Positions 33,120-53,500 of a DNA stretch of 64,000 bases are shown in pieces. Positions within the stretch are counted from its first letter, which is position 1, and the number at the start of each line of letters is the position of its first letter. The notes beneath the pieces are model-generated. The model had not been told where the DNA came from. It was given only the letters and a program-made list of their open reading frames with translations, and ran no database searches. Made by a program: the position numbers and the translations under genes. The DNA comes from Candidatus Roizmanbacteria bacterium (GTDB lineage Bacteria; Patescibacteriota; Microgenomatia; UBA1406; GWC2-37-13): assembly GCA_016214055.1 (NCBI GenBank), contig JACRPE010000018.1, forward strand, positions 1 to 64,000, read 5' to 3'.

Positions 33120-33159
33120 GATATATTGTACAAAAGGGAAGAAGCAAACACAAATAAGG

Positions 33160-33165
33160 TATAAT
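33160..33165 (+). promoter_or_regulatory. -10 box of the tRNA locus
   Basis: TATAAT on the plus strand, 14 bases before the first tRNA-like acceptor strand (33180). Confidence 0.5.
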
Positions 33166-33179
33166 GGAATGAAGAAAAA

Positions 33180-33389
33180 CGGGATGTAGTTCAGATGATT
33201 CGCAAATGCGGTTCCCCTGTAAAAATCGGAGTGTAGTTCAGATGGTAGAACACGCGGTTCGGGACCGCGAGGTCGCGGGTTCAAGTCCCACCACTCCGAC
33301 ACGATTTTTACAGGGTAAAGGGTTTACACTGTAAATTGAGACAATTTACAGTGACCGCGAGGTCGCGGGTTCAAGTCCCACCATCCCGA
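33180..33389 (+). other. Interrupted tRNA-Pro-like gene enclosing a complete tRNA-Pro
   Basis: 33180-33214 looks like a tRNA 5' half: CGGGATG, TA, GTTCAGATG, then GCGGTTC. 33353-33389 is a perfect 3' half: GACCGCGAGG, TCGCGGGTTCAAGTCCCAC, CATCCCG, A. Their acceptor strands CGGGATG and CATCCCG pair over seven bases and differ from the inner tRNA by two compensatory pairs. The split lies in the anticodon loop. The 138-base insert holds a 14-bp perfect inverted repeat around the inner tRNA (33215-33228 with 33302-33315) and a 12-bp hairpin (33328-33353). The D-arm of the outer copy is poorly paired, so it may be a remnant. Confidence 0.4.
33227..33299 (+). tRNA. tRNA-Pro (anticodon CGG)
   Basis: A complete 73-base cloverleaf: acceptor CGGAGTG with CACTCCG (seven pairs), D stem GTTC with GAAC, anticodon stem CGCGG with CCGCG around TTCGGGA, T arm GCGGG-TTCAAGT-CCCAC with one C-A mismatch, discriminator A. 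The loop gives anticodon CGG, reading CCG. C1-G72 fits bacterial tRNA-Pro. The CCA end is not encoded (CAC follows). It lies inside the larger tRNA-like structure of the surrounding 210 bases. Confidence 0.92.
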
Positions 33390-53369: not shown

Positions 53370-53500
53370 CCACACTGTAAAATTATTTAGGGGTTTTACA
53401 GTGTAAACCCATTTTACACTGGAAATTTCTGTTTAGTTTCCAGTGCTAAGCTGCTTTAATCCCGCCAAGGTGTGATAAACCAGCGTAAGATGGGTATATA
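53370..53500. repeat. Composite palindromic repeat, family E/G
   Basis: Holds TTTTACAGTGTAAACCC, ACTGGAAATTTCTGTTTAGT then TTCCAGT, and AAGCTGCTTT...AAACCAGCGTAAGATG. The last unit repeats at 59708-59756. The region lies between rpsB and the HIT gene. Confidence 0.65.

Follow-up and report, generated by a model that had tools for sequence, protein, structure and literature searches.

A tRNA-Pro(CGG) gene nested in the anticodon loop of a second tRNA-Pro gene in Candidatus Roizmanbacteria, with counterparts at other tRNA loci

The Rickettsia palindromic elements are hairpin elements inserted within genes. Mitochondrial repetitive or double hairpin elements likewise insert within genes, including RNA genes such as mitochondrial rRNA (PMC2800124), and together with the REPINs (PMC3116915) they are the closest parallels in form to the structures described here. 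The closest parallel in logic is the tRNA-dependent lysogeny of mycobacteriophages, in which the tRNA gene destroyed by the element is made good by a cognate tRNA that the element brings (PMC10865867). Archaeal tRNA introns of the Thermoproteales have moved between tRNA genes, according to work cited in PMC10714607, and tRNA-Sec inside selB is an example of a tRNA gene nested in another gene (PMC8124441). Full-text searches of an open library turned up no description of one tRNA gene lying within another. Here we describe such an arrangement in a 64,000-nt stretch of DNA (the window) from contig 18 of a 1.2-Mb genome (GCA_016214055.1; G000) of Candidatus Roizmanbacteria, tiny bacteria that are uncultured. 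The genomes used were mostly metagenome-assembled genomes (MAGs), and included the Candidatus Roizmanbacteria assemblies G007 (PFLI01; CG_4_10_14_0_8_um_filter_33_9), G083 (PFTH01; CG_4_9_14_0_8_um_filter_34_12; 89% complete, 5% contamination) and G084 (PFOE01).

The nested tRNA-Pro(CGG) and its counterparts

A sequence-only reading had proposed that positions 33180-33389 hold a complete tRNA set into the anticodon loop of a second, divided one. Direct reading, ARAGORN and Rfam upheld this proposal. An intact tRNA-Pro(CGG) (33227-33300) lies within a second tRNA-Pro whose anticodon loop is split, and both programs called the inner tRNA only (33227-33299/33300, 63 bits). All features are on the forward strand. 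Downstream of the promoter block AAACACAAATAAGGTATAAT (33146-33165) comes the 5′ half of the outer, resident tRNA-Pro (33180-33214), which has a degenerate D-arm and ends in the anticodon loop (..GCGGTTC). It is followed by the left arm CCCTGTAAAAATCG (33215-33228) of an inverted repeat that encloses the inner tRNA; this arm is similar to the CTGTAAA..TTTACAG palindrome family, and its partner, the right arm CGATTTTTACAGGG, occupies 33302-33315. A linker read directly, TAAAGGGTTTA (33316-33326), joins two inverted hairpins and resembles TAAACCCATTTTA, which connects two hairpins near 53408. The hairpin CACTGTAAATTG AGA CAATTTACAGTG (33327-33353), a member of the TTTA-CACYG..CRGTG palindrome family, precedes the outer 3′ half (33354-33389, starting at 33353 or 33354). 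This half comprises the 3′ strand of the anticodon stem, the T-arm and the acceptor strand CATCCCG, and 31 nt of it are identical to the inner tRNA. The insert of 138 bp is too small for a gene.

Most structural details of the sequence-only reading stood up as well. The inverted repeat is indeed perfect over 14 bp (33215-33228/33302-33315) and forms part of a 17-nt pair at 94%, but the left arm extends over the first two inner-tRNA bases, leaving 12 bp strictly outside that tRNA. The 12-bp hairpin after the inner tRNA (33327-33338/33342-33353) was confirmed as perfect, and so were the seven pairs between the outer acceptor strands CGGGATG and CATCCCG. When the 210-nt nest was folded, it reached −84 kcal/mol (z = −5.0), a stability matched by 0 of 200 shuffles. 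The minimum-energy structure included 7/7 outer acceptor pairs, with the 5′ strand paired to 33382-33388, in agreement with the suggestion that the insert can fold away and bring the outer halves together. The outer copy had further been described as a remnant with a weak D-arm, and it proved to carry GTTC with no GAAC partner and to lack its D-stem. Excision of the insert left an anticodon loop of TTC+GA, short by two bases (GG).

The sequence-only reading had named a lack of conserved outer halves in relatives as grounds for its refutation; comparison with related genomes gave the opposite result, since the architecture recurs with other isoacceptors and in other genera. G000 itself carries a tRNA-Pro(GGG) nested in a tRNA-Pro that is split in the anticodon loop and bears a D-loop hairpin (contig 24), a fully nested tRNA-Thr(TGT) (contig 4) and a half-nested tRNA-Thr(CGT) (contig 21); the last lies behind an outer 5′ half that carries two hairpins in its D-arm, and the outer 3′ half is gone. 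The inner genes are the sole Pro(CGG), Pro(GGG), Thr(TGT) and Thr(CGT) genes found in G000. G007, from another Roizmanbacteria genus, has a nested tRNA-Pro(TGG) whose outer copy carries D-loop and T-loop hairpins. G083, also from another genus, has nested Pro(TGG), Thr(TGT), Thr(CGT) and Arg(TCT), together with an additional plain tRNA-Thr(TGT) on a separate contig. Inner and outer copies are of identical isoacceptor type wherever the outer anticodon arm allows a judgement; the Arg(TCT) outer of G083 has no such arm. One nested tRNA-Thr of G083 with a D-loop hairpin was called by ARAGORN only as intron-bearing and fell just below the Rfam cut-off, a warning that nested tRNAs can be misread in annotation.

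Several further observations concern these genomes. In G007, 21 tRNAs were found in total though the genome is rated 92% complete; several lie at contig ends, and tRNA loci there may break the assembly or escape detection. Contig 10 of G000 holds an intact tRNA-Phe amid three broken tRNA-Phe copies carrying TCCGAnTCGGA palindromes (L061, 1110-1750), and at position 13473 of C10 (L075) ARAGORN called a tRNA-Val(AAC) with a 389-nt intron, scored 23.3 by Rfam, below the cut-off. A linker of about 65 nt (CCAG..GTAT..TTGCTAAATTTGATAAAATTTAGCTTA..CGGGATCCCG) is common to Thr(TGT) of G066 (L278) and Thr(CGT) of G083 (L101), which differ in genus and isoacceptor; it lies between the outer 5′ half and the inner tRNA.

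Empty sites, alternating tRNA-Thr types and palindrome positions

G002, a sister species with a single-contig genome in the genus of G000, contains a plain tRNA-Pro(CGG) in the same neighborhood of cysS and an exonuclease gene; upstream of it lies a promoter block that is identical, in an ungapped alignment, to the one before the outer tRNA of the window. In G002, Leu(GAG) and Arg(TCT) also flank a plain tRNA-Thr(TGT), and this neighborhood matches those of the nests in G000 and G083. Judged against this empty site, the Thr(TGT) break falls exactly between anticodon bases 35 and 36 (TTTG^TAA). Since plain genes occupy both sites in G002, with the same promoter in the case of Pro, we take the outer gene to be the old resident and the insert to have entered its anticodon loop.

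Two types of tRNA-Thr(UGU) alternate across the family, namely type A (GCCTGGA..TCCAGGC) and type B (T-arm GTCAG or GTCGG, acceptor ending CT/AG), and the Thr(TGT) nests are type B inside type A. In the Thr(TGT) nest of G083, the outer 3′ half is identical over 39/39 positions to the plain type-A gene of G059, and the outer 5′ half has been overwritten by inner sequence, probably through gene conversion. Three genomes of one genus differ: type A is present in G002 and B nested in A in G000, and in G001 B precedes a fragment bearing a D-loop hairpin. In G046, an intact B lies about 60 nt downstream of an A fragment that carries hairpins at the D-loop and the 35/36 site. Because the Thr(TGT) copies belong to different, alternating types, the nest has the appearance of an intermediate in tRNA gene replacement, and we read these arrangements as stages in the replacement of one gene by another, in an order that we infer. 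At Pro(CGG), an unusual C.A mismatch in the T-stem is common to the inner and outer copies, which suggests that local duplication or gene conversion may also have been involved there. Taken together, the recurrence, the empty sites and the series A, B inside A, and B within one genus provide a testable route for a tRNA gene swap, by which an essential, single-copy tRNA gene would be exchanged without a lethal step.

Palindromes of several families were found at fixed sites of extra tRNA copies (D-loop, anticodon loop and T-loop 53/54), showing that tRNA loops are fixed insertion sites of palindromes. The family TTTA-CACYGnAAA..TTTnCRGTG has 14 strict copies in G000, nine of them within or abutting tRNA genes (p about 5e-17 under a simple binomial model). 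In the tRNA-His fragments of G002 and of G007, position 53/54 is occupied by hairpins of differing families, and D-loop hairpins of other families occur in an Arg fragment of G081 and a Gln fragment of G002. A search for intact T-stems interrupted at 53/54 by a hairpin returned seven unique cases, five clearly tRNA-like, against one case in three times as much shuffled sequence. Among 84,980 genomes, the T-arm hairpin pattern coincided with a tRNA-like T-arm and a true hairpin in three Roizmanbacteria MAGs only, the remaining matches having no such T-arm and hairpin. The pattern is absent from IMG/VR, and a phage origin was set aside; a looser D-loop pattern gave 34 candidate viral matches. 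Between genera, cassette arms and hairpin stems co-vary on both sides, as in the Thr(TGT) cassette arms TAAGTT/AACTTA vs. CAATCT/AGATTG, as would fit the preservation of a structure formed by RNA or by single-stranded DNA, or the correction of palindromes when DNA is replicated. G000 has one Y1 transposase, but such enzymes are present in 52 of the 72 family genomes with no specific link to the palindromes, so the presence of an IS200-type transposase is uninformative as an explanation.

Other structured segments were noted along the way. At 53373-53490 of the window, with no tRNA near, two inverted hairpins of the TTTA-CACYG family (CACTGTAAAA..TTTTACAGTG TAAACCCATTTTA CACTGGAAA..TTTCCAGTG) are followed by a segment in which TAAGATGGGT is able to pair with ACCCATTTTA; the segment had no Rfam match, and a similar arrangement occurs in G017 (L099) and G047 (L093). 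The tRNA-Pro(CGG) genes of G019 and G004 are followed by a conserved, structured-looking element of about 150 nt (CTAGAATCCG..GAAGAATGAG..CCTCCGAA..GGAGGACA; L008 1575-1870, and L011 after tRNA-Pro), likewise with no Rfam match. It occurs twice in G019, flanking a second tRNA-Pro fragment, and pieces similar to it lie behind other tRNAs. Many tRNA genes of G000 and G002 have a 3′ CAC followed by a hairpin, with unrelated stems, and GTGTAAACAC, possibly a processing signal or an insertion site.

Proposed mechanism and rival explanations

We consider it probable that a palindrome-enclosed cognate tRNA entered the anticodon loop of a resident tRNA gene as a DNA insertion, that the inner copy works while the outer one decays, and that such events are recurrent in Roizmanbacteria. 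At the window locus, a tRNA-Pro(CGG) within palindromic arms would have entered the resident tRNA-Pro gene. The old promoter would now drive the inner tRNA, the functional copy, in a transcript whose leader is the outer 5′ half and whose trailer is the outer 3′ half, and the outer copy would be a dead tRNA in decay. More generally, palindromic elements, which may be mobile, would enter tRNA genes or extra copies at fixed loop positions (D-loop, anticodon 34-36 and T-loop 53/54). Some of those at the anticodon site would hold a cognate tRNA in their loop, making the insertion survivable and replacing the isoacceptor gene. Three findings run counter to parts of this scheme. No mobilizing enzyme was tied to the nests, which weighs against insertion; the T-stem mismatch common to both Pro(CGG) copies points to local duplication or gene conversion; and the tRNA-derived parts of the Thr(CGT) outer 5′ segment are 34/35 identical between genera, compared with 63/74 for the inner tRNA, a striking conservation that exceeds expectation for dead sequence. 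Combined with the formation of at least five outer acceptor pairs in seven of the eight folded nests (z −5 to −11.5), this conservation makes a leader or processing role conceivable. More tentatively, the nests could belong to a class of minimal, gene-less mobile elements that home into tRNA anticodon loops with a replacement cognate tRNA in the palindrome loop, the outer copy being kept temporarily as a structured leader; if this were true, invasion would equal tRNA gene replacement.

The same conservation and acceptor pairing could be read differently, with the outer copy and its hairpins as a conserved structured leader or scaffold RNA that serves the inner tRNA as a processing aid, in expression control or as a tRNA-like decoy. 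The co-varying cassette arms are in line with this, as are perfect hairpins that differ in stem sequence from genus to genus but keep to the same D-loop and T-loop positions. However, the structure is absent from G002 and most relatives, unrelated hairpin families sit at the same sites, several outer arms contain mismatches, and outer copies occur without a 3′ half (Thr(CGT) of G000) or an anticodon arm (Arg(TCT) of G083). We regard such a conserved role as unlikely.

The sequence-only reading had also named a tandem duplication with repeat insertion. A plain tandem duplication followed by deletions would leave 5′ and 3′ fragments on either side, with the nesting a coincidence. It could account for 3′ fragments that follow intact tRNA-His and tRNA-Leu in G007 with no 5′ half, and for a Pro(CGG) fragment with a shared duplicated flank in G009. 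Nevertheless, it fits poorly and is ranked below insertion, because the halves share an anticodon-loop breakpoint in several loci (exact for Thr(TGT) against the empty site of G002) and because the inner and outer Thr(TGT) copies are of different types. In addition, inverted-repeat arms directly flank the inner tRNA, and we judge this origin improbable.

It is equally hard to accept, and if anything harder, that the outer tRNA is functional and the inserts are introns cut from RNA, one of which releases the inner tRNA. The inserts do fold away, exact removal completes the Thr(TGT) loop (TTTG^TAA), and the insertion sites (D-loop, anticodon loop and 53/54) are like the non-canonical sites of archaeal tRNA introns. 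On the other side, the tRNA splicing endonuclease (PF01974) was found in 0/6 genomes, with archaeal control genomes 4/4 positive, and Rfam scans gave matches to tRNA alone in the G083 nests and to tRNA and a partial 16S rRNA in the window, but to neither a group I intron nor any other RNA family. When the inserts were cut out exactly, a correctly read tRNA resulted in only one of the eight joined outers, and not for the window locus, whose outer copy lacks the D-stem and two anticodon-loop bases. The outer copies of G083 Arg(TCT) and G000 Thr(CGT) cannot be tRNAs. Since most outer copies are decaying, one having no anticodon arm and one no 3′ half, and since searches for an endonuclease and for a group I intron were negative, the outer copies in all likelihood yield no spliced tRNA, and the spliced intron contemplated in the sequence-only reading was rejected as the main reading. 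An assembly artefact is hardly credible: nearly all the genomes are MAGs, G083 is 5% contaminated, and palindromes and tRNA copies are difficult to assemble, but the same architecture and boundaries appear in three separate assemblies with differing sequences, and the window nest lies mid-way along an 80-kb contig.

Comparison with known systems

The preferred reading, insertion of a cognate tRNA as DNA, resembles tRNA-dependent lysogeny (PMC10865867) in that the insertion lies in an un-rebuilt tRNA gene, the cognate tRNA is supplied, and empty sites exist in G002. Unlike in that system, the window insert is about 140 bp with no integrase, no other gene and no phage, and the replacement tRNA of a nest lies directly in the gap behind the old promoter. 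As in REP/REPIN sequences (PMC3116915), the elements are short non-coding palindromes with conserved ends and compensatory stem changes; the TTTA tag with the CACYG..CRGTG hairpin and the inverted pairs at 33215-33353 and 53373-53445 of the window follow this pattern. Unlike REP/REPIN sequences, they are low in copy number (the 14 strict copies of G000, nine at tRNA genes) and are not scattered in extragenic DNA; they lie inside RNA genes, with a tRNA contained in one hairpin loop, and the Y1 proteins, common in the family, showed no specific link to them of the kind that joins RAYT transposases to REP/REPIN. The mitochondrial hairpin elements (PMC2800124) differ in that the sites here are loops of extra tRNA copies, the host is a bacterium, and a tRNA forms the loop content. 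Archaeal tRNA introns (cited in PMC10714607) are likewise insertions in tRNA gene loops; here, in contrast, there is no splicing endonuclease, most outer copies are unrestorable by removal, and a whole tRNA lies inside. Finally, whereas tRNA-Sec is nested in the protein-coding selB (PMC8124441), the host in the nests described here is the cognate tRNA gene.
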